The position numbers and the translations under genes were made by a program. A stretch of 35,471 nt of DNA, taken from Sporopachydermia quercuum (Eukaryota; Ascomycota; Sporopachydermiomycetes; Sporopachydermiales; Sporopachydermiaceae). The DNA lies in assembly GCA_001599295.1 (NCBI GenBank), contig BCGN01000003.1:1-35471 (forward strand), written 5' to 3'. The notes under the pieces were generated by a model that saw only the letters and a program-made list of their open reading frames with translations, searched no databases and was not told the origin of the DNA. Within the stretch, counting starts at the first letter, position 1, and each line of letters starts with the position of its first letter. Positions 2,472 through 35,471 of this stretch are shown here, one piece after another.

Positions 2472-3839
2472 ATGTGCTTAGATCGAACAGAAACAATGGC
2501 TCAACAAATTGCCACGGAAGAGACAATGAAACAAGAAGAGGTAGTGGTTGAAACAAACCAACTAGATATGCGCGATTCTTCTGGTCTAGAAGTGGATATG
2601 GAAGCTGCAGAAGAGCCCAAAGAATTAGACACTTCTCCAGCCTTAACAGTAAATGAGTGGAATCTTTCTAGTATCCTGTGTGTGACTGGAGGATTTTTCA
2701 GTCTATTTTGCAGTTTTGGAGTTGTGAATACGTTAGGATTGTTTGAAGGTTACTATGTTCAACATCAGTTAAGTGACCATACTGCATCGGCCGTCTCCTG
2801 GATTATTTCTTTGCAAACTTTTATTCTGCTTTTCAGTTCTCTTTTTGTTGGTAGGATATTCGACGTGGTGGGAATTAAGATTATCACTCTTTTTGGCTGT
2901 GTATTCGGAACTCTAGGCTTCATGATGACATCAATTTCGAAGGAATACTATCAGTTTATGTTAGCCCAAGGAGTTTGCTGTGGTTTAGGTATTTCAGCAA
3001 TGTATAATGCTGGATTTGCTTCGGTATCAAGCCATTTTCATAAACATCGTGTGATGGCTTTAAGTATAACAGCTAGTGGGTCGTCTTTAGGAGGTGTTAT
3101 TCTTCCTTTAATGTTCCGGTCGATTTTGAAAGACACATCTTTTGCTGTTGCTGTAAGATCCATCGGTTTTTTATATCTTGGAATGACTGGTTCCTGTGTT
3201 TTTTTTCTGACTAAAAGAAAGGCTGAGAATAGTGATCATGAGAAAGCCCATGTGATCAAGGTATGCTACAAATTGGTGAGGATTCCAAGGTACTCTGTTT
3301 TACTGTTCGGAGGTTTTGTATTCTACCTGGGGTTATTCATCCCTTTTTCGTACATTCCACTGTTTGCTCAGAATAAAGGATTTTCTCAAGATATGTCATA
3401 CAATCTGATCTCAATTCTGAATAGTGCAAGTTTTTTTGGTCGTCTAAGTTCTGGATTTCTCGTCCCATATGTCGGTGTATATAATCTCTTCTTGGTGACA
3501 TGTGGACTGTGTGGGGTTTTTTGCACGGCGATGTGGGTGCCAATAAGTACTCATGTTCAGATTATTGTTTTTTCGGTTCTGATTGGGTTATTTAGTGGCA
3601 CCCCAATTTCGCTGACTACACCTATGTTTGCTGATGGATCACCTCACCATGAGATTGGCACTCGGATTGGACTTGCCTCTACTGTGATGTCCTTTGGGGC
3701 CCTTCTTGGGGCCCCTATGGCTTCACTTGCATTACACCCCGAATATGATAATTTATGGATTCTGGGAGTTTGGAGTGGTGTTTGCTTATTGACAGCTTCT
3801 GTCATTATGCGTCTGGCCCCGTTTGCACGAGCTGCATAA
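2472..3839 (+). CDS. MFS transporter, monocarboxylate-permease (MCH) type
   Basis: Encodes 455 residues. An acidic, hydrophilic N-terminus of about 65 residues is followed by roughly twelve hydrophobic segments in two halves joined by a basic loop near residues 245-270. The first half has the MFS loop motif GRIFDVVGIK, and the second half has FGRLSSGF after its second helix, the usual internal repeat. The order and spacing match fungal monocarboxylate-permease homologues (S. cerevisiae MCH1-5), some of which carry other substrates; Mch5 imports riboflavin. The substrate cannot be read from sequence. It is the gene nearest the telomere and lies in a sulfur-scavenging neighbourhood, so an organic sulfur acid is possible, but this is inference. 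A second in-frame ATG at 2496 (ACAATGGCT) has a better context and may be the true start. Confidence 0.85.
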   Translation: MCLDRTETMAQQIATEETMKQEEVVVETNQLDMRDSSGLEVDMEAAEEPKELDTSPALTVNEWNLSSILCVTGGFFSLFCSFGVVNTLGLFEGYYVQHQLSDHTASAVSWIISLQTFILLFSSLFVGRIFDVVGIKIITLFGCVFGTLGFMMTSISKEYYQFMLAQGVCCGLGISAMYNAGFASVSSHFHKHRVMALSITASGSSLGGVILPLMFRSILKDTSFAVAVRSIGFLYLGMTGSCVFFLTKRKAENSDHEKAHVIKVCYKLVRIPRYSVLLFGGFVFYLGLFIPFSYIPLFAQNKGFSQDMSYNLISILNSASFFGRLSSGFLVPYVGVYNLFLVTCGLCGVFCTAMWVPISTHVQIIVFSVLIGLFSGTPISLTTPMFADGSPHHEIGTRIGLASTVMSFGALLGAPMASLALHPEYDNLWILGVWSGVCLLTASVIMRLAPFARAA

Positions 3840-6800
3840 AAAAGAGTGTTTGGTTCTATAGGTGACTGATATGTTGAAATACGTTAGTTTGATTTCTTGG
3901 CGTGTCTGTGATTGTTAGCAAAGTGAAGTACGCAAAAAAGACGTACTACTATTTCTGACGAGCTGAAAAGTCCTTATCGTAATGGGGGACGTGTAAACAA
4001 CAATAAAATACATCTTCATGAAAAAGATATGCTACTACAACCGATAGAAAGCAATCTCAGCAGGTGGAATGGATCAAATTAGAGTTGAGAGGTTCCTCAA
4101 GAACTTGCTATAATTCTGAATGGTAAAGTTTATTCTTTTTTATGAGAATCAGAACTTAAGGAATAAATGCATGTAATAGCTACAGATCGATAGAATTGCC
4201 TAGGAGGACGTTGTAATAACTCGTGACAAAATATGAAGGATGTAATTAATCAGGAAAGAGTGTGAAAGGAGAAATACTATGAAATTGTGATTGAAAATCA
4301 GGAAATACTACATATAAAATATATACACAACTGCAGAAACTGCAGAATACACAATTTAAGATTAAATGTTGGTTGTTTGAATTTGTTTAGATGGTTAATT
4401 TAACAATTTATGGAGATGTAATAGCTTTGAGCTATACCTATGGTCCTTAATACTTTTAGACAATGAAGTAGCCTGAGAGTCATTCACACTCAAGTGAGAA
4501 ATAATAGAAGTTAACCTACAAGTGTATATAGGAGGAAGAGAAAATAGTTCTTTAAAATGTTCGAATTCATTAGTTGATCTCTAGCTAGTAACACCACTCA
4601 ATCTTGTAAATGAAATTGACTACGCACTTAACTTATGCTTTCTCTAGCCTGGCTTATGGTGAAATACTTGAACAATATGAAAAGGTATGAATAGAAGAAA
4701 TGAGTAAAAGAGAACCATAGAACGATAGATATTAATTAAAACTTACAGCCAAACAATTAATCCAATCAATATGTACAAATATAAATTTGATTCCAATCAA
4801 CTGAGTGTCGAGTCACCTGCTAAACATAGTTATCTTGCCATTTTTGGAGTATTAGAATTACGAGCTTAATCGGTAGTTTCATAGAAGTATATTCTATTTT
4901 CTAACTGTGAAGAAAGCGTTTGAAAGGCTNACTAGTTTAAATACTTTTTTGACAGCAAAACCAAAATCTTGCTATTAATTTCCATTGGAGATGGATGGTT
5001 TTATAAGGGCCGTGTGAGAAGTTTTCAGCTGAATATTACTCATGCTCTACTAGCAAACGTTTCAGAAAGCTAACAGTATTTGATACTTGTTCTCAGAATT
5101 TTCCTGACCAGATACGTTTCACCTAACCGAACTTCTAAAACTTACGTTAAATCCGGTGGTATGTTGACACAAAAACCTCAAACAATTCGTGATTCCAATT
5201 ATTCAATCTCCAAGTTCTTTTTCTCATCTTCTTCTGCACTGAGTCATATGGTGGTAAAGGAACTGATAGTTTAAAGTAAGATATTCGAACTTCCCATTAA
5301 AGCAACCTGTCAGGTGATTAAGAGATTATACATGTGCTTCAAAACTTATCACTGTAGCAGTCAAAATTGTGATGCTCCCCATTCATGAATAGTTTGAACA
5401 TTAAATGAAATCAGCAATTAATTACTTTCATTATCTTCACTTTGATAGGTTTCAATAGAAGTTTCAATATCAAGTCTAATTTAAAACAAATTATACTTCA
5501 TTATTGGTTTGCCCTGCTTGAAGAGTCTGATTCTATAGTGGCTTTAGCCATAGTTTGGCAAACACCGCCCACCATAGTTTGGCGTAATGCCCACTTTATC
5601 GTATTCCGCATTCAAAAAAGGGACCGTTTTAGTTCTTTTTATTTTCGATGAGAACTTTATATTTATTTTTCGAAATGTCATTAAAGTTTACATTTTTATA
5701 GAAGATTAATTGATTCGGCAGTTACACCACAGAAGTTACCGAGATTATAATTATATTTCAATCCTTTTTGAAAGTCTAATTATAATAACCTCGTTTTTAA
5801 AGTTAGCGTCAATGTATTATCAATTGAAATCGGAAACTCTGAAAGGTAGGTATAATATAAAGTTCTTTTTTCATATTCTTTTTCCTCTCATTTTAATTGA
5901 CGATTCAGGGTTATCAGTTATTTTCTATTGCTTACCTCAAAATGTACCAGATCAATAACGAATAATATGCCGGGTTGTTATCTTCATTACCATAATCATA
6001 GATTAGTTGAATAGTGAACATTGATATTCGAGAAAAACTGTTTACTAATTAATAGGTTCAGTGTATTGGCGCCTTTCATCTGAATCTAAGAACAAGATTT
6101 ACTCACGGCATTGATAAATTTCAGTATCTATTATAAGATATAGAGTAAACACCAAAGATTTTCAATGAAAATTAATTCAAATTTCACATATTGACTAGAG
6201 ATTTACAAGAAATGATCATAAAGAATGAGACAGTTACCCATTAAGAAGCGCTCTACAATCACGGGTTTCCATTGTTCAACTACTAAACTATCAATCATTA
6301 TTCGCATTATTGCTCTATTCACCCACATTACTTTTTCTTGAATGTATAGCTTCAAGCGAAGAAGGAACAACAAGGCATCATCCCATAAGATCACAACCAT
6401 CCAGGGTCCAAAACATTCTTGATCACCTAGCCTACATGAAACTATAATTATTGCACCATGAAAAGCTTGAAACAACTACAAGCACGCAATCAATTGACTA
6501 AATTGTTGAATAATTCATGATAGCGAGATGCAATGTCTGAAACTCTCTGATCGAAAATATTATGCTATTAAAGTTTATTATTACTCATATATAAGATTGA
6601 TTGTTCCATGCATATGGTTCATTGAACTCTAAATTGAGTTGTCTAAATTAGGATGTTGTATTTCTTGATAACGTTTTAATAATTACTTCCAGAAAGAATA
6701 AAGTAAATGAGGAGAACTTGTTACTCAACAAGATGCTATAGTGGAGTTAGGCATTTCTCTACTTCATACTAACCCAGACTCACGAAGAGAAGTGGAGCAC

Positions 6801-7497: not shown

Positions 7498-9153
7498 ATG
7501 GTACTTGAGAAGGTGAAAGAAACGTTCCGAAAAGGTCGTCTCATTGAGATTGACGATAAATTGATTGATGAAACATATTCAGGAGCAGAGATAGAATTAG
7601 ACAAAGGTGTTCGAAGTGTTGGATATGTTACCGCAATTTTCCTTATTTTCAACCGAATTATCGGTACAGGTATTTTTGCTACACCATCAACAATCTTCAC
7701 ATTATCAGGTTCAGCAGGATTTTCTATGATGTTATGGTTATGCGGTACTATTATTGCATTTTCTGGAATGCTGGTATTTATGGAGTTCGGTGTTGCTTTA
7801 CCGAGAAATGGTGGAGAAAAGAATTATTTAGAATTTGTTTATACTAAACCAAAGTTCTTCATAACATGTTTCTACGCTATCTATGTCTTCTTTCTAGGCC
7901 AAGCATCTGGTAATTCTATTGTGTTTGGAGAGTTTATCTTAAATGCTGCTGGTGTGGAAGTAACAAGATGGAATCAAAGAGGTGTTGGTATTGCATGTCT
8001 TTCATTTGCTTTTCTTATCCACGCCTTTTTCAAGAAGACAGGTATGGTTTTACAGAATGTGTTGGGTACATTCAAACTTGTTATTATTGTAATGATTTCC
8101 GTCATCGGATGGGTAGCATTGTCTGGAAAGCTTAATATTCCACCAGCACATAATTTTGATAATTCATTTGCAGGTACTTCAGGATCTGCTTATGGTGTCG
8201 TGACAGCCCTTTATAGTGTCATTTGGTCCTACCTTGGTTATTCCAATGCAAACTACGCATTAGGAGAAATTAAGGATCCTGTAAAGACATTAAAGGTTGC
8301 AGCACCTGTTGCATTGATTATCGTTGCGATCTTTTATATGTTTGTTAATGTTGCTTATTTTGCTGTTGTACCAGAAGCTGAGTTCAAAGCTTCTGGAACC
8401 ATTTTAGCAGCAAAGTTTTTCAATATAGTATTTGGTGAGGAAGCTGAAAAGGCTCTCTCGGTTATTGTTGCATTATCAGCTTTGGGAAATGTGATGGCCG
8501 TTACCTTTTCTCAGGGAAGACTTTTACAGCAGTTAGCAAGAGAAGGTGTTTTACCTTACTCTTCATTTTTTGCTTCCAGTAAACCTTTTAACTCTCCTGC
8601 TGCTGGTCTTTTTGAACAATACGTTGTATGTCTGATTATTATCGTTGGACCTCCACCAGGTGATGCTTTCGAGTTTATCATGAAGCTTCAATCATATCCT
8701 ATCAATGTTATTAATGCTCTTGTATCTGGTGGTTTGATTTATATATATATTCAAAAAAGAAAAGGTAACATCGAATGGAGTCCTCCATTTAGAGCTACTT
8801 TGCCCGTTGTTATTTTCTTCTTCTTATCAAATGTCTACCTAATTGCTGCACCATTTGTTCCCCCTAGTAACGGTGAAAATGTTTACAATGATCTACCATA
8901 CTGGCTACATTGTGTAGTTGGTATTGGCATTTTATTTCTTGGTGGGGTCTATTGGGTTTTCTGGGCTAGAGTCTTCCCCAAATTGTTGCATTACGAACTT
9001 ATAGTTACTCAAGTTGTCGGTGAAGATGGATTTTACAGAAACAATATCACCAAAAGAAGTACTAAAGCTATTAATGATGTTGAAGGAGATCCTGCCAATG
9101 CAAATTCCAATGATGATTCGAAAGAAGATATTGAAAAAGTCTCTATCAATTAA
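7498..9153 (+). CDS. MUP1: High-affinity methionine permease, Mup1 type
   Basis: Encodes 551 residues, close to S. cerevisiae Mup1 (574) and Mup3 (546). Signature stretches match Mup1 closely along the whole length: GTGIFATPSTI in helix 1, MEFGVALPRNGGEKNYLE, TRWNQRGVGIA, SVIWSYLGYSNANYALGE, FSQGRLLQQLAREGVLP, FFASSKPFNSP and VPPSNGENVY. About twelve membrane segments follow a hydrophilic N-terminus of about 40 residues, and the C-terminal tail is acidic. The family takes up methionine, with lower-affinity uptake of cysteine, across the plasma membrane and belongs to the amino acid-polyamine-organocation superfamily. The start ATG (ACCATGG) is the only sensible one. It fits the sulfur theme of the neighbourhood. 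Mup1 is repressed by sulfur through Met4 in S. cerevisiae; no clear Met4/Cbf1 site is visible here. Confidence 0.95.
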   Translation: MVLEKVKETFRKGRLIEIDDKLIDETYSGAEIELDKGVRSVGYVTAIFLIFNRIIGTGIFATPSTIFTLSGSAGFSMMLWLCGTIIAFSGMLVFMEFGVALPRNGGEKNYLEFVYTKPKFFITCFYAIYVFFLGQASGNSIVFGEFILNAAGVEVTRWNQRGVGIACLSFAFLIHAFFKKTGMVLQNVLGTFKLVIIVMISVIGWVALSGKLNIPPAHNFDNSFAGTSGSAYGVVTALYSVIWSYLGYSNANYALGEIKDPVKTLKVAAPVALIIVAIFYMFVNVAYFAVVPEAEFKASGTILAAKFFNIVFGEEAEKALSVIVALSALGNVMAVTFSQGRLLQQLAREGVLPYSSFFASSKPFNSPAAGLFEQYVVCLIIIVGPPPGDAFEFIMKLQSYPINVINALVSGGLIYIYIQKRKGNIEWSPPFRATLPVVIFFFLSNVYLIAAPFVPPSNGENVYNDLPYWLHCVVGIGILFLGGVYWVFWARVFPKLLHYELIVTQVVGEDGFYRNNITKRSTKAINDVEGDPANANSNDDSKEDIEKVSIN

Positions 9154-12100
9154 TCAAATGTTTATCATTAACTTATGTTTATGATTTAAAGGCTGGAGTT
9201 ATTTCGTGGCTTTTTTTATCTCAATCCTTTAATTTTTCTTTTTATTTTATAGACATTTGTTGAATGATTTTATGTTTTGCATTTTTACATACTAAATGAG
9301 TCTATAAAACAAATCAACCTTATGAGGTTGGTACTGTTCTTTATTTACCAATATTGTAGTAGTTTTTAAAGTTAAAACAACCTTGGAGACTAGAAGTCTT
9401 CCAACCTCCACATCAACTGATACCTTTCCAATGTCTCACTTTGTTTATCAGCAAAGACCATATCTGATTATTACAAGTAAAAAGATTAGTTTTCAATATT
9501 ACGAATTTGATGCAAAATTTTCATGCATAAATCGTAATACCAATGCTGGCTCATTTAAGAGGGGGTAGACTTTCTCTGAGGAGAAAAGACAAGGCTCAGA
9601 AAAACGTTAAAGATAAACGTTATTTCAACTTCCTTAAACAAAATAAAGCTTTAAACTTTCTGCACCATTCTCACCTCACAAATTAGTAGCCATTATCTTC
9701 ATCGAAGGGATAGATTGAAAATAAACACTAAAAGAAGAAACTGAAAACAAACTGAGGAGGTATAAACTAGGAAATCTACCAATATTTTTTATGATTATAT
9801 TCCTAGGGAAGTAACGTAGCATAAGTATAAATCCTCCACTTACTTGTTTTCAACCCAAAAGTAATCTATATGAAGCAGGAGATGTCTAGTTCAATAAAAC
9901 AAGTCGAAGATACAATTACCAGGAACATCTTAGGGGATCATGACACATTACAGATACTTGGTTTTATAGTTTCTAGAAAACTATGACTAGAGAACTGGCA
10001 TAAATAGCATAGTCTTAATGATTAGCTTACAGTCTTACCTCTGCTGATCTAGAATAGAAGCATCTCTTTGTTTAATTTATTATAGAAATTCACAACAAAA
10101 TCTAATAGTATTTATTACTAAAACCCCATTTAATATTAAAATACTTATTGCTCTCAAATTTATCTGGCTTAGACTTTGATATGGTGATTACACCTTACTT
10201 CAGATTAGCATTAATAACATTCCTTCAGCTTTTAGTCTTGATGCAGCTGCAGAGTTTTGGGAGGGTGTTTTTTGACTATTTCATATTGCTTTGGGGTATT
10301 GTCGATAAAGTCCTATTGATATCGCTATAAAAGTCTATAATGCAGATATTATAATATTAAGAACTTCTCTTTACTTATTGGAGTTGAGAACAAAACATTT
10401 GAGAGATAAGTATTTTCAAACAGATAGATTGAATATCTATTCAGTTTAATCTGAATGGTGTATAATCTCCAATAGCTAATATTATTTACTAATAATCTAT
10501 ATGTTTTCGTTTTTATTTATTTTTGTTTTTGAATCGCTTTCTGTTGGGAGGTATACAATTATTATAGCTTGACTTCAACTTTCTTATTGCTCTACTCCCT
10601 GACGAATGATACTTCTTGCAATCTATAGAATAAGCTTTGGTTTTATTGTTCATGCGATTAATCTTAACATATATCAAAGCTTAGTAGTCAATATATCATT
10701 CAGTGATAAGTGATTGGCTGCGACCTAAACTTATAGCTGATTCCTAATAATTTCGTATATTTACCTAATGCTCTACTTTAGTGTATAGTAAACGTCCACA
10801 AGTATATGATATTCCTTAGGAATAATGAAAATAAGCATTTTCTGGAAAAACGTTTATTATAATTGTTTTTAATGGTTTCAACTCAGACTTCGTGAAGAAT
10901 GCCTGCATGTGAAGGATTTAAAATATTTCATGCTTTCGAGAGATTCTATTCATTGACCATACTCTGGCTCATAAATCTATTACTTACGCAGGAAAGTCGC
11001 TAGCTCAGTAAACCTTTGTGGCATTTATCAATTAAAAAAACTTCTTTCTAAAGCGGCTCTATTAATACAATTGATTTTTATAATTCAATTTCAAATCAAA
11101 GCCTGTGTCAATTCTTAATACAGTGGAATAGATTGTAGAGACTTCAGTACTCTGAAGTTCAATGAAAAGTACTACGATGGAAAAACATCCGCTGAGATAA
11201 ATTGACTATTAATTGGCTAACAAAAATAATCCCATATTGTAGATTATTTCTGAAAATCTAGGAGCAAAAATAGTTACCAGTATTAAAGCCCAAGCTTTGA
11301 TAATAATCCTAGATGCATTCATTACACTGACTGATAATGAATGGTATTTAGAAAGTTTCCATTAGTCTATAAGTAATTTTCAACCTATACAAACACATTT
11401 GTAAAAACCTATGTACCAACTTTCCAAAGATTTAGCTGTCCAACATGATTTCCACCAGCAATTATTGGCAGTAATTAGTTTATTCTCATTTGAATCAAGC
11501 TAGGATATGGCGCAACACATCAAGCCCTTAAAGTAGTTGGAAGACTTACATATTTGAAGCACAATAATGTACGGCTTGGCAAACAGCTTTGATAAGGATG
11601 GGATTATGTCTCAAATATATATTCTGTCAAGTAAAGATCTGCATCATGTTGTGCTTTGTGCTTTTTCCTAGGTTTATTTTACCTGTATTTTAAGTAGAAG
11701 TATCACTATTGTCCATTTTTGATCAAAGGCAGCTGAAAGGTTNATTCTTTTCTTTTCAATAAAAGAAAATGTTACAGTGACAATTAATTTTCCTTGTTAT
11801 TTTCACTATTCTTTGTATTGAAACAAAGATTAGTTAATCAGATGATAGCATTCCCTTCTACTCAGATACAGATAGGGGCTACATTAGAGAGTAATTTGTA
11901 CCTCAGTCATTTTTGCTTACATTGCACTTCTATTCTGAACAAAACTATAATAATGATCTCAGCCATTACTGTTTTGGTAGATAGTAATCCCACATATAGT
12001 CAAAGGGAAAAACATTTCAGAAAGAAGAAAAAGGCAGAAGAAACTATCATATTCCCGTCTAAGGACATAAATCAGTTATATTATGATTCATAGTTCACTG

Positions 12101-14637
12101 ACTTTAATTATCAATCAATAATTTAACTAGCAATGCAGTGCCAGATCTTCAACGACTTCCAGTAATACTGGGTTAACGAAAGTATTTGATGAACCAACCA
12201 TTAAACGCATATTCTTAATGAAAACATTCTCACTAAGAATGAGAATCCAAAGAACCACTCTGATGTATAACACATATCACAAGTAGCAAACTTATTGGAG
12301 ATAGGGAGGCAGATAAGGTACAAATTCAAGTATTCTCAAGTTTAAATTTTCTAAAGATATTTGAAAAGCAAACAAGTCGTCTTTCTTTCATAGGTTTGCA
12401 TTATTTAGTTGTTCCAGAATTTACCGGTAATGAATAAATAATTTCTCCTGATCAAAGCATCTTTGTCGGCTCCTTTTTCACCTTCCCAACATTGATTTTC
12501 ATTACCAAAATGAGCACCACAATCAAAGAGCCTATGACAGATCATGTTTGCTTTGTAAATGGTCTTGTTGCAAAATCCTTTAGTTGTCACTTCCAATTAC
12601 CGAAGCCAACTAATTAAAAGATTTAGTACTGAGAGTTAAAGCAATTATTGTTCTACTTTCATGTATATTTAAAGAGATTATGAAATAAAACAAGAAAATG
12701 TACTTCAGGAAAACAATAATCAAATAATTCCTCAAAGACTGTCTGTAACATAATAAAAAATAACGAGACAGGCGACGCAGTAATATATTATCGGAATCAT
12801 TTGTGAATAACTTCCATAATCTATACTAATTATTTCAAAAAAAAGGAAAACCAATAGAAGTCTAAAGCAAAGCTTACTATTCCTTTGCGCGATGGGTACG
12901 GTACAATCATCAGATAAGTTAATGAAAAGTTTCCCCATTAAAACTTGTTGTCACTATAATACTACAAGAAACTATTCATGAAATCAGAATAGTACTCTTA
13001 GTAGAATGCAGTTTCCATCAGGACGTTGATCTTTCTTTCTTTCCTTTTTCTTGGGATTGGCTCTCATAATTATCTCACTCGAAAGACATGGATCTAAATT
13101 TTTAGAATCTAAGTTTTAATAATGTCCTACAGTAACTTGGTGTAAATTTAATGGATAACCAATAAAGTCCTATTTGCAGAAAAGTAATAGTGTGTCATTG
13201 TAATGAAGTTTAATTTAGGTTGCATAAACTCCACACTAGCTTCAAGTTAAACTGCAATAGTACACAATTTAAGTTGAGGATCCATCTCATTTGAATGAAA
13301 TGTTAGATTATTATATTCTTAAGTGACACAAGTTGATAAGTTTTCTGAAGCATGGACCGTTAAATCAGCAGCTAAAGGGTTGTTGACACACTAATTATTG
13401 CAAAGAATTATGCTTGCTCTACACGTATTTCTTCAGCACATATCAACACGCTCAACAAATCAATAATAAAATTCAGGTTTTCTATGCAAATTATTACTAA
13501 AACTAATGAGTGCCATCATTTAATTCATATGATGGTCATCAGGTTCTAGATTTCCTAAACTTCAGAACCTTGACATTTATAAGCATCGCAATCATTTCTT
13601 GATCGATTTATCATTTCCCTTGCAAGGTGGTCATTGAAAATATATATTATTACGACCTTGCTAGACAACGTGATCTCCTTGGAACAAAATTATTGTCACC
13701 TTTTAACAATTCTTCAAATACTGGTCTTCTGTTTAAAAAGAAGTAACTGGAAACTGTATACTGGATCAAGCGGAACAAGAGCCAGAAGATGATTATAAAT
13801 CAGAAAAAACTAGGGACATAGATTGTTATTCTCGCTCCGAATGAAAACAATTTATATAACTCAGTAAAAGTGACAGAAAAGTATTAAAGGTTATTCTTTC
13901 CTTATCTATGTCTAGAATCAGTCTACTTGTGAAGTTGATTGAGCTTTTAGCAAGCGAGAGGAACGTATTTGCTGGAAATAAACGATAAAACCACTAATTT
14001 AACGTTCTAACTTTATGCAATAGTATGCATGGATAAAAGTAAGGTTTTTGATACAGTAAAAGTAAGTAAAAATTTTATTCAATTTATAAGGTAATAATAT
14101 AATATAGAGATAAATAAAAGGAAAGAGCATAGAGTCTGATATAGCAAAATCAGTAATATTTAGACTTTCAGTAATCAATAATAAAGTAGTAAAATAATAA
14201 TACGATAAAATGATAAAATGATAAAACGATAAGAAAATATAGTCACACGAAAGCTAAATAGTATTCATATTATATTTCAATAAGCGACAGCATTTGACCT
14301 GACGTCTCGTCTCGTCCCATTCAGCCATGAACAAAAACTTTAAAGTTCAAGAGGGCGAAGTATAAGTAGAGAGATAACGTTTGACTACAAAGGGGTTTCG
14401 GGGATTCAAGCTTGAAAGCACTAAACTTTGAATGAAATGACACAATTTCTGCAAGAATGAATCAAATCAAGTAGATCCTAGTTACATTCGTCTTCCTTGC
14501 AGATATTGTAATTGAAAAGTTTGAATGTATGAATAAGAATTCCCAAGAACAAAATTTTTACAGGTGAACTTTTTTGGCTTACATTTATTAGCTTTTAGAA
14601 TTTAATCGATACATTTTTTCATTAAAACAAATAGCTT
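9154..14637. other. Long gene-free subtelomeric stretch
   Basis: About 5.5 kb without a supportable gene, unusually long for a yeast. The open frames are short and mostly begin with TTG (9383-9568, 10148-10330, 11794-12093 on +; 12405-12596 on -). One ATG-initiated 68-codon frame (12732-12938, -) is hydrophobic and unrecognised. A short tandem of GATAAAAT-like units lies at 14204-14235. I see no transposon ends, tRNA B-box or RNA gene. Confidence 0.5.
14204..14235 (+). repeat. Short tandem repeat of GATAAAAT-like units
   Basis: Four successive units read GATAAAAT, GATAAAAT, GATAAAAC and GATAAGAA. It lies about 400 bp beyond the 3' end of the dioxygenase gene and in no obvious promoter, so it is most simply a microsatellite and not a cluster of GATA-factor sites. 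Confidence 0.5.
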
Positions 14638-24406: not shown

Positions 24407-24413
24407 CACGTGA
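24407..24413. promoter_or_regulatory. Cbf1/Met4-type site CACGTGA
   Basis: CACGTGA lies about 270 bp upstream of the ATG at 24684, at nearly the same distance as the matching site of the previous gene. It is a probable Cbf1/Met4 element by motif and position. Confidence 0.5.
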
Positions 24414-24537
24414 CATGGTTAATTACTTTCCCATGTTTGACAGATATTTGATAAATTACGACAATTGAGATAGAGTTTATCTAATTCATGATTAGATCAA
24501 CTTAATCTCAAATACGAGAATTTTAATTTCTGAATAG

Positions 24538-24545
24538 TATAAATA
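24538..24545 (+). promoter_or_regulatory. TATA box of second tandem dioxygenase
   Basis: TATAAATA lies about 146 bp upstream of the ATG at 24684. Confidence 0.45.
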
Positions 24546-24683
24546 GTTCTTCATCATACTGTTTGAAAATTCATTCTTATTCTTTATCTATTTACTAACT
24601 GGATAAAGGGAATAGTTAAAGCATTAAGAGTATCAGTACTTGCAGTAACCATATTATTGATTTTACTCGCTGCTTTATACAAT

Positions 24684-25844
24684 ATGGCTCCAACAGTGAC
24701 TGAACAGAGTTTCACTAGTGGTGACACTACTGAACAATTATTGAAAGATCAAAAGGCTGAAGAGCTCAAGAAACTGGTATCAGGAGCTCAAACCTATGGT
24801 TACAACTACAAGTCCGTTGAAAATGAAGATGGTGATTTCGTTGTAGCTCCTGAAGAAGCCGAAGGAGCACTGTATCCACAGTTTTTACCTTCTCACCAAA
24901 AAGCCATTACACACCAGGTGCCAGGAGAATTTACAATTGAAGATGTTGCTAAAAAAGCTGATCCTTCATTCAAAAATCTTTTTAACTCGGAAAACATCAA
25001 AAAGTCAAACATTACCCCCAANTTTGGAACAGACCTTTCTGGTATTCAACTTTCCAAATTAAACGATGCTCAAAAGGATGAACTTGCTCTGTTCATCGAA
25101 CAAAGAGGATTGGTTGTACTTCGTGATCAAGATTTGAAAGATCAACCTTTGGATGATATCGTCAAATTTGGNGAATATTTTGGTCCTCAACACATTCATC
25201 CAGCTACGGGCTCGCCCAAGGGTTACCCCCAAATTCATGTTGTTTATAGGGCCAAGCAAGAAGGTGCCACCACCAACATATTCAAGGATCGTTTGAACAG
25301 TATAGCATGGCATAGTGATATTTCCTTTGAAGAGCAGCCGGCGGCTTTATCTTTTTTAGCAATCCTAGAGTTGCCAGATAGTGGTGGTGACACTATATTT
25401 GCTAATACTGCTGAAGCTTACAACAGATTGTCTCCAGCACTACAAAAATTCCTTGAAAGCTTAACTGTTATTCATTCAGGACTTGAACAAGGAAAGAACA
25501 CTCTAAATAGATTTGGTGGTAAAGGAATTAAGCGTGGATTGGCAATTAGTGAGCATCCCGTTGTTCGTACTCATCCAGTAACAGGAGAAAAGGCATTGTT
25601 TGTGAATCCTGCGTTCTCAAGACGAATTCCCCAATTGAAGAAGGAAGAGTCTGATTACGTGTTGAATTTCCTTTACGATCACATTTCTAAGGGACAAGAT
25701 TTCCAAGCCAGAGCCAAATGGGAAGTAGGAACTGTCGTAGCCTGGGACAATAGAAAAACTGTTCACAGTGCATTGTTTGATTGGGATACTGTTGAGAGAA
25801 GACATGCCTTTAGATTGACTCCCCTTGGAGAGAGGCCGTTCTAA
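24684..25844 (+). CDS. JLP1: Sulfonate/2-oxoglutarate dioxygenase, Jlp1 type (second tandem copy)
   Basis: Encodes 386 residues from ATG 24684 (AATATGGCT); the frame is open upstream only from a TTG at 24657. It is the closest sister of the preceding gene. The active site is complete: His210-x-Asp212 in AWHSDISFE, Thr of SGGDT, His of RKTVHSAL and the C-terminal Arg residues. It ends with GERPF, about three residues shorter than its sisters. Expected reaction: sulfonate + O2 + 2-oxoglutarate to sulfite, aldehyde, succinate and CO2, probably cytosolic because no targeting signal is seen. The region around residues 195-210, between the tract and the HxD motif, differs most from the sisters, which may mean a different sulfonate preference (inference). 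Two N bases (25022, 25172) lie inside the identical tract; the first leaves Lys/Asn undecided. Confidence 0.93.
   Translation: MAPTVTEQSFTSGDTTEQLLKDQKAEELKKLVSGAQTYGYNYKSVENEDGDFVVAPEEAEGALYPQFLPSHQKAITHQVPGEFTIEDVAKKADPSFKNLFNSENIKKSNITPXFGTDLSGIQLSKLNDAQKDELALFIEQRGLVVLRDQDLKDQPLDDIVKFXEYFGPQHIHPATGSPKGYPQIHVVYRAKQEGATTNIFKDRLNSIAWHSDISFEEQPAALSFLAILELPDSGGDTIFANTAEAYNRLSPALQKFLESLTVIHSGLEQGKNTLNRFGGKGIKRGLAISEHPVVRTHPVTGEKALFVNPAFSRRIPQLKKEESDYVLNFLYDHISKGQDFQARAKWEVGTVVAWDNRKTVHSALFDWDTVERRHAFRLTPLGERPF
24921..25204 (+). repeat. Identical tract shared by dioxygenase copies (copy 2)
   Basis: Equals 23150-23433 over 284 bp apart from N bases. Shorter identical tracts between the same two genes also occur at 25542-25590 (with 23771-23819, 49 bp) and in the segment matching 23933-23976 (44 bp). 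Confidence 0.9.
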
Positions 25845-26419
25845 ATTAGTATGGGGTTAGTATGGTTAAAGAGTTGTTAACCATATAACTATATTATTAG
25901 AGACAAGTTTACTATTCTGTTATAGTTTAAAGACTAAGGATGTTTGTTAAATATACGTCCCAACTTAATATGTAAGTAGAATAAATATTGAATTTAAATT
26001 GCCATAGGGCACGAAGCTACCTGAACTTGAACTATAGGTTTAGAAGAGTGTTTATTGGATGTTATCTGCTTCCCTACTTTCTGCTCTCGTTTATTGCAGC
26101 TCCCCCTACGGATATTTCAGCTATTCAAAAGTGCTCACATACATAAGCTACCCAAGTAAATCTTGTCAGTCAACTTTGAGCATAAAAACTAAAAATAGCG
26201 CTGATAAAGTCACTTAAAGTATAATATAACTTACTAATAGAATGAAATCCCAACCTTCGTTGTATTGTTTTAACATATACATTTTACTATATGGCGTCAC
26301 AAAACCATTTCAACATTCTTTAACTTAAAAAATTGTACTATTGAATCTATAGAAACTAGACAAAAGAGAAACGAGAAAAGCAAAATCCGAAGCTACTTAA
26401 GTCGGCGAATTACAACANC
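25845..26419. other. Convergent intergenic region
   Basis: About 575 bp between the 3' ends of the tandem dioxygenase and the SOA1-like gene. It should hold both transcript ends; no distinct element is recognised. An N lies at 26418. Confidence 0.5.
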
Positions 26420-28135
26420 TTAATGAGAAAATCTGAAGTCCAATCTTCTATTTCCTTTATCTTTTGTTGTCAAGGTGTATTCAACTTGTTCCTCTTTGGT
26501 GAAGGCATTCCACTTCAATTCTTTTTGTTTATTACGATATGAGTAAAACCATTTTGTTAAAAGAAGAAACACAATTGCAAGAAGATTTATCCCGAACAAG
26601 ACACCATTTCCTCTTCTGTAAAGAGGAGCATCGTCTTGTCGGTAAATATTAGAAGCAATTATGGCACCAGCTTGTACAAACATATTGTACAACGCGGCAC
26701 TCACAGTTCTAGATCTTACAGCATTGGAGTTTCGGGAGCACCACGCAACTAAAATGGCATGAATGTAAGGAGCACCCAGTAAAAGTACCAAGACTGCGTA
26801 TGTTTGCCAAATGTAACCAGGTTGAGCAACATTCTTCCAGAAAGCTAAGACTCCAATAAGTGGAACAAGCCACAAAGGTTGTAAAGTTGAAGTGAAGCAT
26901 TTCTCCTCCCTTTTCTCGGTAAGCCAAGTTAACCATATCATCAGGATAATATGGAGTACTTGATATGGGATGGTTAGAACTGTAGTTACAATTGCGGAGA
27001 AACCCATTCTTCTCAGAATAATTGTGATATATGCGCCTGTAGTGTTAATAGGGATTAAGATAATGAGGCCAATAAGATACAATGGCCACAAATCATAATC
27101 GGTCAAGGCTTCCCATAAGAGCTTCGGAGTTATATGCTGACGATTATTCATATCACCTTTACTTGGGTCATCACGCAACAATCTGTTCACAACGATTTTT
27201 TCCTCCCTGTCTGTAAACCATCCTTTCTTTCTAAACCATGTCCTTGTTTGGGCAGGAGATGCAGGCATTCTAAAAAAAGAAGCAATACCGATCACTAGAG
27301 TTAAAAGCCCTTGAAGTAAAAACAGCCATTGCCATCCGTGCCAACCATTAACACCTCTCATTCTCAACAGCCCAAAAGCCATTAAGGCAGTGGCAATTTG
27401 AGCAAAAGATAAAGCAGTCCAGAAGAAAGATAATCTGATTGGCAACTCTCTTGAAGTATAGAAATAGGATAGCCATAAGACAACATCGGGAATGAACCCA
27501 CCTTCTAAGAGACCCAATAAACATCTAGTAACAAAAAAGCTAGCTTTACCACTTAAAGCAGCTTGAGACATAGCAACAATTGACCATAAGCAAATCTGAG
27601 TGGGGATCCATCTGTCTGGTCCCAAACCCTTGGAAATCAGCTGAGATGGTAATTCAGCAGACAAAAATGAAACCAAGAAGATTGTTTGACCAGTATTGTA
27701 GTCATTGGTAGTAAGACCTAAGTCCGACAACATATTATCAGCCAAAGCCTGAATAATATTTCCTCTGTCAATTTGAAGAGCAATAAACATAATACAGGCC
27801 CAGAAACAAGCATACCATTCTAGCTTTCTCAGAACAATCTTCTCCTCCTTTAGTTCCCATTCAAAATTGGGATCAAATAAGTGCCTGCACTCATATTGTG
27901 TTTTCTCATAGAGCTGTCTATAGTATTCAGCTACCTCAGGATTACTGAATATATTATCGTCTTCACTATCTTCACGATGGGATACAATTTCCAAAATCTC
28001 CTCTGGAGTTTTAGTGGTACTATTTTTTCTGTATGATCTTGTTTCTGAATCTTTAACCGAGCTGTTTTCACTTTCAGTAGTATCACGTTTAGAGTCAGAT
28101 GTCTCTGACTTTTCTTTCTTGAAAAGGGTAACCAT
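26420..28135 (-). CDS. SOA1: Sulfonate/sulfur-compound transporter, Soa1 type (DAL5 family MFS)
   Basis: Encodes 571 residues, close to S. cerevisiae Soa1 (YIL166C). A hydrophilic N-terminus of about 100 residues, rich in Ser and charged residues, precedes twelve membrane segments. Close matches to Soa1 run along the protein: DNMLSDLGLTTNDYNTGQT, RCLLGLLEGGFIPD, VNRLLRDDPSKGDMNNRQ, DYDLWPLYL, VRSRTVSAALYNM, GAIIASNIYR and the C-terminus TTKDKGNRRLDFRFSH. Soa1 is a proton-coupled plasma-membrane importer of sulfonates, thiosulfate, sulfite and sulfate. Its place among four JLP1-type genes and two sulfatases fits uptake of the substrates of those enzymes. An ATCACATGA Cbf1-type site lies about 505 bp upstream in the region shared with the gene at 29749. 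Confidence 0.93.
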   Translation of the reverse strand: MVTLFKKEKSETSDSKRDTTESENSSVKDSETRSYRKNSTTKTPEEILEIVSHREDSEDDNIFSNPEVAEYYRQLYEKTQYECRHLFDPNFEWELKEEKIVLRKLEWYACFWACIMFIALQIDRGNIIQALADNMLSDLGLTTNDYNTGQTIFLVSFLSAELPSQLISKGLGPDRWIPTQICLWSIVAMSQAALSGKASFFVTRCLLGLLEGGFIPDVVLWLSYFYTSRELPIRLSFFWTALSFAQIATALMAFGLLRMRGVNGWHGWQWLFLLQGLLTLVIGIASFFRMPASPAQTRTWFRKKGWFTDREEKIVVNRLLRDDPSKGDMNNRQHITPKLLWEALTDYDLWPLYLIGLIILIPINTTGAYITIILRRMGFSAIVTTVLTIPYQVLHIILMIWLTWLTEKREEKCFTSTLQPLWLVPLIGVLAFWKNVAQPGYIWQTYAVLVLLLGAPYIHAILVAWCSRNSNAVRSRTVSAALYNMFVQAGAIIASNIYRQDDAPLYRRGNGVLFGINLLAIVFLLLTKWFYSYRNKQKELKWNAFTKEEQVEYTLTTKDKGNRRLDFRFSH

Positions 28136-29572: not shown

Positions 29573-29748
29573 TTCAATGAATCGCCGGATTACCTTAAAC
29601 TATCAGAGATGTACTTACTTGTGAAGTAGGCTTTCTTGACCGATAATCATACAAAATACTGACAAATACCCCATTCGAGCTTTGTGAACTACATTGTTGA
29701 AAATTGCAAAGCGGTAATCAAGTAAGAACTGAATTTTAGGAATCAAAA

Positions 29749-30921
29749 ATGGCCCCAACTGTGTCTGCTACTGTCAGCGTTGTTGAGCAAGATCAAGAGA
29801 GACAACTCTTGAAGGATAAAAGAGCTGAAGAACTGAAGAATCTCGTAACACCCAGAGCTCTTTATGCATATCCATATAAAACAGTTGAAGATGAAGATGG
29901 AAACTTTGTGATTGACCCTGAAGAAGCAAAAAGTGCATTGTATCCTCGATTCTTGCCTACCCATCAAAAAGAAATCACTCATGAAATCCCTGATGAGTTC
30001 GAAATTGAGGATGTAGGCAAACGAGCTGATCCTTCATTCAAAAATCTTTTTAACTCGGAAAACATCAAAAAGTCAAACATTACNCCCAAGTTTGGAACAG
30101 ACCTTTCTGGTATTCAACTTTCCAAATTAAACGATGCTCAAAAGGATGAACTTGCTCTGTTCATCGAACAAAGAGGATTGGTTGTACTTCGTGATCAAGA
30201 TTTGAAAGATCAACCCTTCGAAGATATCATCAAGTTTAGTGAGTACTTTGGTCCTCAGCATGTCCACCCTGCCTCTGGTGCGCCAAAAGGATTTCCAGAA
30301 ATTCATGTTGTTTATAGACCTCCGGTAGAGATAGACCATGATAGAGTTTTTGCTGAGAAGTTGAATACCATTGGGTGGCACAGTGATGTTTCTTACGAGA
30401 GACAACCTGCATCTTTGTCTTTCCTCGCTATTCTTGAATTGCCTGAATCTGGTGGTGACACCTTGTTTGCTGATACTACTGAAGCATACAACAGACTTTC
30501 TCCTGCTCTTCAAAAATTCCTTGAAGGATTAACTGTGGTTCACTCTGGTCTAGAGCAAGGACAGGAAGCCTTGAGAAAGTTTGGAGGTAAAGGTATCAAA
30601 CGTGGATTAGCTATCAGTGAGCATCCTGTTGTTAGGACACATCCAGTAACCGGTACAAAATCCTTATATGTTAATCCTACATTTTCAAGGCGAATTGTAC
30701 AACTAAAGAAAGAAGAATCAGACTGGTTATTGAACTTTTTGTATGATCACATTTCTAAAGGACAAGATTTTCATGCAAGAGCTAAGTGGGAAGTTGGCAC
30801 TGTTGTAGCTTGGGACAACAGACGTACAGTTCACTCTGCCTTATTTGACTGGTATTCTCCTGAAAGAAGACACGCTTTCAGATTGACTCCTTTAGGTGAG
30901 AAACCCTTTTTCGAAGCTTGA
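29749..30921 (+). CDS. JLP1: Sulfonate/2-oxoglutarate dioxygenase, Jlp1 type (distal copy)
   Basis: Encodes 390 residues from an ATG in the context ATCAAAAATGGC, giving MAPTVSATV as in the first tandem copy. The active site is complete: His211-x-Asp213 (GWHSDVSYE), Thr of SGGDT, His of RRTVHSAL, and the C-terminal Arg residues before LTPLGEKPF. It is more distant from the tandem pair than they are from each other, except for 192 identical bases (30024-30215) that encode about residues 92-155. It is divergent from the SOA1-like transporter and convergent with the arylsulfatase. The substrate is probably an alkyl or aryl sulfonate; the exact one is unknown. One N (30084) falls at a silent third position. 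Confidence 0.93.
   Translation: MAPTVSATVSVVEQDQERQLLKDKRAEELKNLVTPRALYAYPYKTVEDEDGNFVIDPEEAKSALYPRFLPTHQKEITHEIPDEFEIEDVGKRADPSFKNLFNSENIKKSNIXPKFGTDLSGIQLSKLNDAQKDELALFIEQRGLVVLRDQDLKDQPFEDIIKFSEYFGPQHVHPASGAPKGFPEIHVVYRPPVEIDHDRVFAEKLNTIGWHSDVSYERQPASLSFLAILELPESGGDTLFADTTEAYNRLSPALQKFLEGLTVVHSGLEQGQEALRKFGGKGIKRGLAISEHPVVRTHPVTGTKSLYVNPTFSRRIVQLKKEESDWLLNFLYDHISKGQDFHARAKWEVGTVVAWDNRRTVHSALFDWYSPERRHAFRLTPLGEKPFFEA
30024..30215 (+). repeat. Identical tract shared by dioxygenase copies (copy 3)
   Basis: These 192 bp equal 23185-23376 and the corresponding part of 24921-25204 apart from N bases. The sequence diverges abruptly on both sides, including at silent sites. Confidence 0.9.
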
Positions 30922-31452
30922 GTATTTGAGGTGTGAGAATTGTGATGAATGCTTAAAGTATATTGAATATACTCTTGTCAATTTTTAGATAGGCTATTTG
31001 TTTTTTTGTTTTCTAATCTATTCATCATTAGTCATAGAATCTGAATTAAGTTGAACTTGAGTAATAAAATTCTTAGTGTTAGTTGAAATTGAATAATAAA
31101 ATTACATCTACTATTTTGAATTCCATTTATTTTGTTTTTCGAAAAGTGGTAGTTAGGCTAACATGTTTATTAAGATTATGATCTTGTAGAAATGATAGAA
31201 TTCATGGTATTTGCAATTCATCGATACTCTAAAATATATAGTTGAACCTTATTACTCAAACCTTAGACCTTCAATTACTTTTACAAGTTGGAGATTAACT
31301 TTCAATTTATGCTTGTTATCAATTACAATGGGTGTACCAAATTGGTCAATTAAACATATTGAAAAGTCTAGAAGTTTGTTTATTCTCTAGTTTTTACATA
31401 TCAATTTCTCAAAATTCCTGCGCAGATCTGATGCCTATATGTTTCAATGTTC
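30922..31452. other. Convergent intergenic region
   Basis: About 530 bp between the 3' ends of the dioxygenase and the arylsulfatase. It is AT-rich and presumably holds both polyadenylation regions; nothing else is recognised. Confidence 0.5.
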
Positions 31453-33129
<1,677 letters not shown>

Positions 33130-33299
33130 CTACTGTAACAAATGAACAGTTATATGTATTGCAATTGAGTTATAATAGCAATTGGTATGAACGATCCACT
33201 CTTTAGACTTTTCTTGGGCCTAAAGATGTACAATAATAAGAAAGTTCAAGTTGAGCGGTTAGTACATAAAGGATTTTTGTATGGAAGATGGGATTAAAA

Positions 33300-33307
33300 C
33301 TTTTATA
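33300..33307 (-). promoter_or_regulatory. TATA box of arylsulfatase
   Basis: The - strand reads TATAAAAG, about 180 bp upstream of the arylsulfatase ATG. Confidence 0.45.
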
Positions 33308-33388
33308 AATCCGGAGACTTTACATCTTTTATAACATGCTAAAATAGAGAGAAAGNAAGAAAATTGGAAACCAGATCTCCGAAACCCA

Positions 33389-33410
33389 AAACTTGTGGGG
33401 ACCACACAGT
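33389..33410. promoter_or_regulatory. Met31/32-like inverted element
   Basis: ACTTGTGG and CCACACAGT face each other across a few bases, forming an imperfect palindrome. Each half resembles the S. cerevisiae Met31/Met32 site AAACTGTGG with one or two extra bases. It lies about 270 bp upstream of the arylsulfatase ATG, between the TATA box and the CACGTG site. Confidence 0.3.
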
Positions 33411-33581
33411 TCTCCCGTTTATTTCGCCAAACTCAATATATTAACATACTTACTTTGGGTACTTCAACTCCTATTATTGTCAGAGAAATCAATGAAATAA
33501 TAGCTCTCCTGATATGATTCATCTTGGTCTAAGTATTGAATTATTGAGTGGCTGTTTTGCTTTATGTAAGATATTTCAATT

Positions 33582-33587
33582 CACGTG
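33582..33587. promoter_or_regulatory. Cbf1-type site CACGTG
   Basis: CACGTG preceded by T, about 460 bp upstream of the arylsulfatase ATG. The gene on the other side starts 1.6 kb away, so the arylsulfatase is the likelier target. Confidence 0.45.
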
Positions 33588-34106
33588 GTAGTATGCAATT
33601 TGATTTTAGAGTTGCATCATCAATCTTAAAGTTTCAACGTCTAAATTTCAACTAGCATTCCTTGTAGGATCTTCCTAAAAGTCCGGATGTCCATTCAACG
33701 ACTTTAGACTCATTATCGCGGAGATTCGGCGTTGCAGCCAACTTGTCAATTTAATGATTAAATAATTTTAAATGAACGCAGAGTTAAATTTATACCATAT
33801 TTGAATACAAGGGAGATATCATTAGAAGAAGTCAAAAGTAACTCTAACCATATTCGGAAAAATAACGGTATCTNGCATTACGAAAAGGGTAGGTAAGATT
33901 ACGCCATTTCTGCCTAAGAAAACAAATAGTTCAAATCTTAAGTTTAACTTAAACCATCGGACATTCGCACTGTGGATTGATTTGCAAGAATTCATGTTTC
34001 GATAATTAGCACACTCATAAACCCGAAAAAAAAAAAAAAGAAAGTAGAAGATGGACCAGTTTAATATTAAGACAAATAAATATACTTGAAGATCTCATCA
34101 CATTAA

Positions 34107-34376
34107 AGCTTAACAAGTGAGTGGCAAGCAAAACGATGTAGCTATCAATATTATGGTCCATATAAAAAGGCTGATGCCTCCCAATTGCTTCAATATTTTC
34201 ATGAAAGTGGGCGTGATTATTTGTTTCAATTGGGTTCACCTCAAAGTTCGTATTTTAATATTTCTCCATATACTTTAAAGCCATTTTGTCTCCCTTGCAT
34301 TCAATTGGCTATCTCAATTCTGTGTCTTTTAACCTTATGGCAAGTTTTGGGTTATGCAGCTGTTGTCTTATTATGA
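34107..34376 (+). other. Coding-like open frame without start codon
   Basis: The frame stays open for about 90 codons between two stops and lacks an ATG. It includes hydrophilic, protein-like pieces such as QYYGPYKKADASQLLQYF and HESGRDYLFQLGSPQSSY, then a hydrophobic end. It could be a worn 3' fragment of a gene; the family is not recognised and chance is not excluded. Confidence 0.2.
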
Positions 34377-34817
34377 AAGAAGCCTTCCAAGACGACCCCC
34401 TATCACAATGCAAACATAAACCATTGCCACCTCTTTCATTCATTTAGTAGAGTGAGAGGAATACCATAAAAGAAAGAGGACAAGAGCATTCCTCTGCTTA
34501 ATACTGAGTTGGTTAGCTTTGCAGAATTCTTTTTTCCAGGCAAGTAATAGCTCATTATCATAGGTTTCCAGTTGCTTACATTTGAATTGACAGTGCGGGC
34601 CATTTAGGAATTAGTATTCTGTNCTGTAAGTCATTTCCTCCTACTAAGCTGTAGAAAAGCCACCAAAACTTGGCGATAATAACCAAAAATAGAAAGTATG
34701 CCACTGGGTTGCAATATTGAATGACTCTAGCATTTCTTATCGTTTTACCTTCTTCAGAAAGTAATTCAAATCAATAACTAAGTCTTAATAAGCGGTTTAT
34801 CATTTAGACTTTCAAAG

Positions 34818-34826
34818 TCATGTGAT
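34818..34826 (-). promoter_or_regulatory. Cbf1/Met4-type site ATCACATGA
   Basis: The - strand reads ATCACATGA, the same nine bases found before the SOA1-like gene. It lies about 385 bp upstream of the partial transporter at 35212. Confidence 0.45.
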
Positions 34827-34861
34827 TAGTAACAATAATCATTGATATTGTCACAATTCGG

Positions 34862-34902
34862 GTGGCTCCTTGATGATTTGCTTGAGGCTTTTGGGGAGCC
34901 AC
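34862..34902. promoter_or_regulatory. Inverted GTGGCTCC / GGAGCCAC pair
   Basis: GTGGCTCC (34862-34869) and its perfect reverse complement GGAGCCAC (34895-34902) flank 25 bases. Each arm contains the GTGGC core of Met31/32-type sites. It lies 36 bp from the ATCACATGA site and about 310 bp before the partial transporter. It could instead form a hairpin or be chance. Confidence 0.3.
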
Positions 34903-35052
34903 ATTAACAGGAAAGTTAACTGTGCAGAAAGGAACTAAGCTTCCAAACTTAACCTTAANTTTACCAGTAAACCGTTCCATTAAGTGAATAAAGTTATTCA
35001 ACCGCTTGAAAATGCTTTCATTTTTCATAAAAAACTGGATAGAAAAATCAAA

Positions 35053-35059
35053 TATAAAT
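35053..35059 (+). promoter_or_regulatory. TATA-like element of right-edge transporter
   Basis: TATAAAT lies about 150 bp upstream of the ATG at 35212. Confidence 0.35.
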
Positions 35060-35211
35060 GATGATAAAAAGAACATTCTAAGAAAATGTTGTTTTCAGAA
35101 ACCACTAATAGTAAAAAAGAGAAAAAACAGCTTCATTCATACTTATTGTTGCATCAACGTTAATTTCTTATTGTTGATTTAGAGGTATTTCAGTGTCCAT
35201 AGATATACAGG

Positions 35212-35471
35212 ATGTCATCAAGTGATAAATTAGAAAAAATTGCTACTACAGAACTGAAGAGTTCCGGATCATCAATTGATTCGTTAGAAGATAAGAAATT
35301 GNATGACTTTCCAAAGACGTACATTTATGATGCTGATAAAGACAGAGTTACTTTTTTAGAAAAGAACTGGACAGAGGAAGAAGAGAGAAGAGCATACAAG
35401 AAACTTGATTTCACTATCATACCTCTATTATTCTTCGCTTTCTTCCTATTACAGCTTGATCGTGGTAATAT
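35212..35471 (+). CDS. DAL5/SOA1-family MFS transporter, N-terminal part (cut by window edge)
   Basis: The first 86 codons are in the window, starting at ATG 35212 (MSSSDKLEKIATTELK). A hydrophilic, Ser-rich N-terminus leads to NWTEEEERRAYKKLDFTIIP and the first membrane helix, which ends in LLQLDRGN. The acidic patch before KKLD and the DRGN motif at the end of helix 1 match DAL5-family transporters; the SOA1-like protein in this window has ALQIDRGNII at the same place. No stop occurs before the window edge. It is probably another importer of organic anions and, given the promoter elements and neighbours, a sulfur-compound carrier (inference). One N (35302) leaves residue 31 unknown. Confidence 0.8.
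   Translation, partial: MSSSDKLEKIATTELKSSGSSIDSLEDKKLXDFPKTYIYDADKDRVTFLEKNWTEEEERRAYKKLDFTIIPLLFFAFFLLQLDRGN

Follow-up and report, generated by a model that had tools for sequence, protein, structure and literature searches.

A putative organosulfur-scavenging locus at a chromosome end of the yeast Sporopachydermia quercuum

Introduction

Sulfonates and sulfate esters are counted by a review among the main sulfur forms of terrestrial soils (PMC5857272). We describe a chromosome end of the yeast Sporopachydermia quercuum (assembly GCA_001599295.1, contig BCGN01000003.1, positions 1 to 35,471 of the forward strand; the whole of these 35,471 nucleotides is called the window) that groups genes related to enzymes and carriers for such compounds. 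The locus is real, coherent, and mostly ordinary in its parts and copy number. We discuss its 4 genes of the TauD/Jlp1 dioxygenase family (J1 to J4), its 2 sulfatase genes (BDS and ARS), and its transporters, and we weigh what the grouping may mean. The part most worth following is J1, a dioxygenase-like gene with an altered catalytic site; the remaining content is mostly ordinary.

Organization of the locus

Open reading frames and Pfam families reveal 10 genes in the window, 9 of them complete, with a coding share of 37.5%. They comprise a Mup-type permease, J1 to J4, a Bds1-type alkylsulfatase, a PAS-type arylsulfatase, a major facilitator superfamily (MFS) transporter, a partial gene related to it, and a telomere-proximal MFS gene. 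The core cluster occupies 14.6-35.5 kb, and the permease is set apart from it by 5.5 kb of apparently gene-free DNA. The terminal array and the core genes are as follows.

1-101: telomere-type array, 9.2 perfect copies of the 11-bp unit CAACTACCTCC, C-rich strand reading inward
14638-15816, minus strand: J1, TauD/Jlp1-like protein, intact open reading frame, altered catalytic site (Pfam, TauD alignment)
18375-20321, plus strand: BDS, Bds1/SdsA-type (type III) alkylsulfatase (Lactamase_B, Alkyl_sulf_dimr, and Alkyl_sulf_C)
22910-24082, plus strand: J2, TauD/Jlp1-type, complete Fe/2-oxoglutarate site (Pfam TauD, alignment to solved TauD chains)
24684-25844, plus strand: J3, TauD/Jlp1-type, complete Fe/2-oxoglutarate site (same evidence)
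26420-28135, minus strand: MFS transporter, Dal5-like (MFS_1, 65.5 bits)
29749-30921, plus strand: J4, TauD/Jlp1-type, complete Fe/2-oxoglutarate site (same evidence)
31453-33123, minus strand: ARS, PAS/AtsA-type (type I) arylsulfatase (Pfam Sulfatase, 181 bits; CSPTR motif)
35212-35471, plus strand: start of a second Dal5-like MFS transporter, ATG at 35212, cut by the window edge

Because 9.2 telomere-type copies with the C-rich strand inward open the window (the G strand of the unit is GGAGGTAGTTG), the window is a yeast chromosome end, and its subtelomeric position is shown directly by an array in telomere orientation. A first-pass annotation, made from the letters alone, had described a subtelomeric group of organosulfur genes spanning 28 kb. 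The array at base 1 confirms the position, the span is correct (7498 to 35471), and open reading frames and Pfam bear out its gene list, with the SOA1-type transporter seen as an MFS protein, in keeping with the organosulfur character that it proposed.

The dioxygenases J2, J3, and J4

All 4 dioxygenase-like proteins match Pfam TauD, with scores of 167-211 bits. J2, J3, and J4 share 77-82% identity among themselves, and each shares 61-63% with J1. The facial triad HxD...H is present in all 3 as WHSD and DNR[RK]TVH. The same 3 proteins carry T, R, and R at the 2-oxoglutarate contacts Thr126 and Arg266 and at the sulfonate contact Arg270 of TauD, and in each of them the equivalent of the sulfonate contact His70 lies within H[IV]HP; the residues in this list are, in part, those we take to be the TauD contacts. 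Family and complete active sites point to J2, J3, and J4 as sulfonate dioxygenases that would release sulfite. The earlier count of 4 JLP1-type dioxygenases stands for family membership, and it falls for J1 as a fourth working enzyme. Against plasmid records, and for comparison with the sulfatases described below, J4 reaches 31-37% identity in the best 10 of 435. A predicted structure of J4, built from a four-sequence alignment, had a mean predicted local distance difference test score (pLDDT) of 30.8 and was not used.

Some of J2, J3, and J4 might instead be AtsK-like sulfate-ester dioxygenases, an alternative that we hold to be unlikely. It draws on the taurine-amine residues of TauD, Y73, D94, and N95, which are replaced in J2, J3, and J4 by T/T/S, N, and S/S/T, respectively, and on yeasts that are reported to use sulfate esters with neither sulfatase family (PMC5857272). 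However, these replacements are polar, whereas the Rv3406 paper describes hydrophobic residues at the Y73 and D94 positions of AtsK and Rv3406. Further, solved TauD outscores AtsK for every copy (114 versus 61 bits for J1, 143 versus 95 for J2, 140 versus 94 for J3, and 144 versus 83 for J4).

Gene conversion and a hypervariable loop in J2, J3, and J4

The 3 complete copies are mosaics, in which a block of identical sequence sits inside otherwise diverged genes. The relevant segments are as follows.

23150-23433, plus strand: converted block in J2, 284 nt without a mismatch to J3 (N allowed); 23185-23376 is identical to J4 over 192 nt
24921-25204, plus strand: converted block in J3, of which 24956-25147 is common with J4
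30024-30215, plus strand: converted block in J4, 192 nt common with J2 and J3
23465-23530 (J2), 25236-25301 (J3), and 30304-30369 (J4), plus strand: hypervariable loop before HxD, alignment columns 190-211

Synonymous divergence (dS) is 0-0.04 inside alignment columns 96-160, whereas the flanks give values of 1.15-2.8 or values that exceed the range of the method. The longest identical run of each of the 3 pairs was equalled in 0 of 2000 shuffles. No such block links J1 to any of the other three: the longest runs in these pairs measure 16-21 nt and were reached by 69, 76, and 587 of 2000 shuffles. Because the identical blocks sit between flanks with dS above 1, we attribute them to gene conversion among J2, J3, and J4. 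Four of the 16 single ambiguous bases (N) of the window fall inside the blocks, and J2 and J3 each have one at a common alignment column. Reads may therefore have been mixed by the assembler here, and the blocks may be less than exactly identical. Taken further, these N would make the blocks as a whole an artefact of mixed paralogue reads. We judge this improbable, since mixing presupposes long near-identical stretches and the flanks differ at dS above 1; moreover, the block edges shared by J2 and J3 differ from those of J4.

Just downstream of the converted block lies the loop, which aligns to the TauD segment ending in the taurine-amine residues Asp94 and Asn95. The densest 22-column window contains 16 variable columns, a density reached in 0 of 5000 shuffles. 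Fifteen of the 22 columns in 190-211 vary, versus 34 of 180 beyond 212 (Fisher p 4e-6, for a region chosen post hoc). This hypervariability fits a diversified substrate range, but a mobile loop under little constraint would explain it equally well: the Rv3406 paper reports disorder in a loop at roughly residues 69-92 of an enzyme whose iron site is numbered in the same way. The first-pass annotation had suggested that the 4 copies divide labor by substrate; given this loop, the idea is at most possible for J2, J3, and J4, and it does not hold for J1, which is without the iron ligand.

J1, the altered copy

J1 retains an intact frame of 392 amino acids. Its triad is incomplete: Asn214 replaces the first iron ligand, TauD His99, while D216 and H365 are retained.

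15175-15177, minus strand: J1 codon AAT (Asn214) at the first iron-ligand His position

Both 2-oxoglutarate contacts are altered as well, with V241 for TauD Thr126 and K377 for Arg266. In mutagenesis of TauD, His99 was reportedly irreplaceable. The Rv3406 paper describes the iron motif H-X-D/E-Xn-H as essential. Because the first iron His and two 2-oxoglutarate contacts have changed, J1 is probably not a working sulfonate/2-oxoglutarate dioxygenase.

Catalytic change has not been accompanied by visible decay. Over 244 codons outside the converted block, the ratio of nonsynonymous to synonymous substitution rates (omega) is 0.079 on the J1 branch versus 0.064 elsewhere, a difference that amounts to 0.25 in twice the log-likelihood (2dlnL); omega of 1 on the J1 branch is rejected (2dlnL 36.1). 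The branch bears, as an average, the mark of purifying selection seen in its paralogues. It is also long (t about 2.5) and spans time before any catalytic loss, so a recent loss remains compatible with these values.

Two readings of J1 follow. In the first, it is a dying gene, with a recent catalytic loss and nothing special preserved. We think this quite possible, if short of probable: the low omega averages over time that precedes any loss, and J1 departs from J2, J3, and J4 at 71 of the 282 columns that are invariant among them, 23 of these departures being radical. It fits less well with 3 changed catalytic positions, of which the T-to-V change requires two base changes, or with an unbroken frame whose omega is not raised. 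In the second reading, which we rank below recent loss and hold as a tentative suggestion, J1 would be a conserved pseudo-dioxygenase. It would keep the TauD/Jlp1 scaffold and the sulfonate-holding His70 and Arg270 equivalents, without iron/2-oxoglutarate chemistry, and would have been retained for a different role, for instance as a sensor or buffer of sulfonates or as a partner and regulator of J2, J3, and J4. A preserved Jlp1-like protein without the iron ligand, if true, would provide a natural test of the dioxygenase scaffold without its chemistry. A predicted structure of J1, from the same kind of four-sequence alignment, had a mean pLDDT of 29.9 and was likewise set aside.

The sulfatases BDS and ARS

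BDS has the composition of a type III alkylsulfatase: a Lactamase_B domain with HxHxDH, a dimerisation domain, and a C-terminal domain. Its alignment to the solved alkylsulfatases 7tl5/4nur is nearly end to end (688 bits), with HxHxDH retained. The top-ranked of 166 plasmid records is a Caballeronia gene, at 57.9%. ARS, of type I, has a Sulfatase domain that begins at residue 6, and the protein matches 1hdh at 627 bits over nearly its full length; the next different sequence scores 221 bits. All 10 PAS active-site residues are present, with Cys52 at PAS position 51 (alignment mapped by eye). We take 1hdh to be PAS of Pseudomonas aeruginosa, and the organisms assigned to the solved chains 1hdh, 7tl5, 4nur, and 1gqw are likewise presumed. 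The PAS and SdsA residue lists, apart from what the Rv3406 paper states, are those we take to be correct.

Identity between ARS and plasmid-borne bacterial genes is 40-47% in the best 10 of 617 records. In a genome collection, ARS had two weak matches in uncultured Clostridia, at 28% and 20%, which were not used. Both sulfatases are bacterial-like, and their ancestry is likely bacterial; for S. cerevisiae BDS1, bacterial descent has been published (PMC5857272). Very recent transfer of BDS or ARS from bacteria is not favored, as their codon usage and GC content at third codon positions (GC3) are unremarkable among the 9 complete genes. A Kluyveromyces lactis arylsulfatase variant is said to lack formylglycine.

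Transporters, permease, and neighboring DNA

The Dal5-like transporter at 26420-28135 has no solved relative at E 1. The open reading frame at the right edge, which has no Pfam match, resembles this transporter at 35% over 34 amino acids (E 0.001), with a common Q-[LI]-DRGN segment; this likeness bears out the first-pass view of the edge as the start of another family member. Two further genes lie toward the telomere.

7498-9153, plus strand: LAT-type amino acid permease, probably a Mup1-like methionine permease (AA_permease_2, 331 bits)
2472-3839, plus strand: MFS gene between telomere and cluster (MFS_1, 126 bits)

The nearest solved chains of the permease are b(0,+)/LAT-type carriers, consistent with a LAT-type APC protein. 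It is probably a Mup1-like methionine permease, on a Mup assignment that we presume. The MFS gene at 2472-3839 has no evident sulfur link; it shows the largest codon-usage distance among 9 genes compared (0.150, GC3 0.34).

CTG reads as leucine here, because at 6 of the 7 columns with CTG in the dioxygenase alignment a paralogue has another leucine codon; this argues against a CUG-Ser yeast. Candida albicans and Candida parapsilosis, by comparison, read CTG as serine.

No tRNA gene was found in the window by ARAGORN. The DNA at 9154-14637 (5.5 kb) is a long gap for a yeast; it has no stop-to-stop frame above 101 codons and no Pfam match in any of six frames. All gaps above 1 kb were searched with Pfam in six frames at E 0.1, with nothing above cut-off and no gene remnant accepted; a DUF7618 match in 33125-35209 (E 0.03, 14.9 bits versus a cut-off of 27) was taken as chance. 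For the gaps 24083-24683, 25845-26419, and 30922-31452, each below 0.61 kb, the only check was a tblastn search with the proteins encoded in the window itself. Against the whole masked window, these proteins gave a single 17-amino-acid match, taken as chance. A rotated form of the telomere 11-mer occurs singly at the internal positions 10543 and 21535, possibly by chance, and an imperfect inverted repeat (85% over 61 columns) lies upstream of J2 at 22368-22425. The 16 isolated N are at 4930, 11743, 16840, 20231, 22479, 23401, 25022, 25172, 26418, 30084, 33024, 33356, 33874, 34623, 34959, and 35302; perhaps they are ambiguity codes from heterozygosity or mixed reads.

Regulatory motifs

All 3 occurrences of the Cbf1 motif CACGTG in the window lie upstream of cluster genes.

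22615-22620: CACGTG, 295 bp upstream of J2
24407-24412: CACGTG, 277 bp upstream of J3
33582-33587: CACGTG, about 459 bp upstream of ARS

Three such sites were reached in 1 of 300 shuffles. The transporter and J4 share 387 bp of their upstream stretches, an overlap that the shuffles count twice and that makes the test slightly conservative. Because ten motif forms were tried, these sites support sulfur regulation of the cluster weakly.

A model for the locus

We consider it likely that this chromosome end carries an organosulfur-scavenging locus built from known families, which would supply sulfur when better sources run short. In the model, Dal5-like carriers would import sulfonates or sulfate esters. 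J2, J3, and J4 would oxidize the carbon next to the sulfonate with Fe(II), O2, and 2-oxoglutarate, yielding sulfite; BDS would release sulfate by hydrolysis of alkyl sulfates, and ARS would do so from aryl or other sulfate esters; and the nearby Mup-type permease would bring in methionine. Sulfite and sulfate would then enter normal assimilation. The dioxygenase genes may have arisen by local duplication. Conversion holds part of J2, J3, and J4 together, and the loop ahead of the iron site has diverged, a pattern compatible with different substrate ranges. J1 has diverged further and lacks catalytic residues, on a branch under purifying selection on average.

Several points weigh against this model. 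The hypervariability of the loop may be mere lack of constraint, given that the corresponding Rv3406 loop is described as disordered, and the loop was picked after the data had been inspected. No CACGTG lies upstream of J1, BDS, the core MFS carriers, J4, or the permease; the Met31/32 motif CTGTGGC occurs nowhere in the window, and none of the other Met31/32 forms tried shows enrichment. The Soa1-type identity that the first-pass annotation gave the transporter at 26420-28135 is a suggestion; what the sequence shows is MFS_1 and a likeness to the second carrier. Finally, ARS activity is uncertain, because fungal arylsulfatases appear to be without formylglycine modification, as the review reports (PMC5857272).

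Subtelomeres also collect dispensable, duplicated, or bacterial-derived genes, and JLP1 duplication with chance neighbors could have produced a grouping with no joint function. Four of the 10 genes are paralogues, the subtelomere is gene-poor, an MFS gene of no evident sulfur link shares the same end, and regulatory motifs are sparse. Set against this, the 28 kb hold 2 unrelated sulfatase families and a Mup-type permease beyond the dioxygenases, and BDS1-SOA2 and JLP1-transporter neighbors are reported in other fungi; we regard grouping by chance as rather improbable. If the scavenging locus works as proposed, one chromosome end opens sulfonates and sulfate esters to this yeast. It would also serve as a compact system in which to study the effects of subtelomeric duplication and gene conversion on substrate range.

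Comparison with known systems

A literature search, covering titles, starts of abstracts, and the matches listed, with subscription papers thinly represented, returned no account of all these families in one yeast subtelomere; a search of this coverage does not show that such a cluster is absent from print. The number of JLP1 copies, which the first-pass annotation had called striking, is ordinary, since published yeasts carry four or five. Brettanomyces naardenensis is reported to have 5 sulfonate dioxygenases, alike in multiplicity; the accessible text of that report describes no cluster. The degree of grouping, also called striking, is partly known. BDS1 is reported to be syntenic with SOA2 in 4 Saccharomyces species, and in Basidiomycota and Eurotiomycete fungi JLP1 orthologues reportedly lie together with a gene predicted to encode a transporter.

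Among the enzymes themselves, S. cerevisiae Jlp1 and E. coli TauD belong to the same family as J1 to J4. Residue by residue against TauD chains, J2, J3, and J4 share the full Fe/2-oxoglutarate site; in contrast to these 2 systems, 4 copies are linked here, and J1 is altered at TauD His99, Thr126, and Arg266. ARS is a near full-length match to Pseudomonas aeruginosa PAS (1hdh), with 10 of 10 listed active-site residues, in a yeast host.

Regulons in 2 other yeasts show the same combination of several dioxygenases and arylsulfatases for organosulfur use. In C. albicans, the sulfur-starvation genes are reported to include enzymes of these classes; of the mutants of 5 JLP genes described, only jlp12 failed on taurine, and under hypoxia only. 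In C. parapsilosis, the same enzyme classes are reported to rise on cysteine/methionine starvation, and 4 dioxygenases and 2 arylsulfatases to be Met4-dependent. What the accessible texts describe for both species is a regulon rather than a physical cluster; here, the cluster is physical. A related arrangement is reported in S. cerevisiae, where BDS1 next to SOA2 similarly places a bacterial-like alkylsulfatase near a Dal5-family transporter. To that pair, the S. quercuum locus adds an arylsulfatase and 4 TauD-family genes at one chromosome end.

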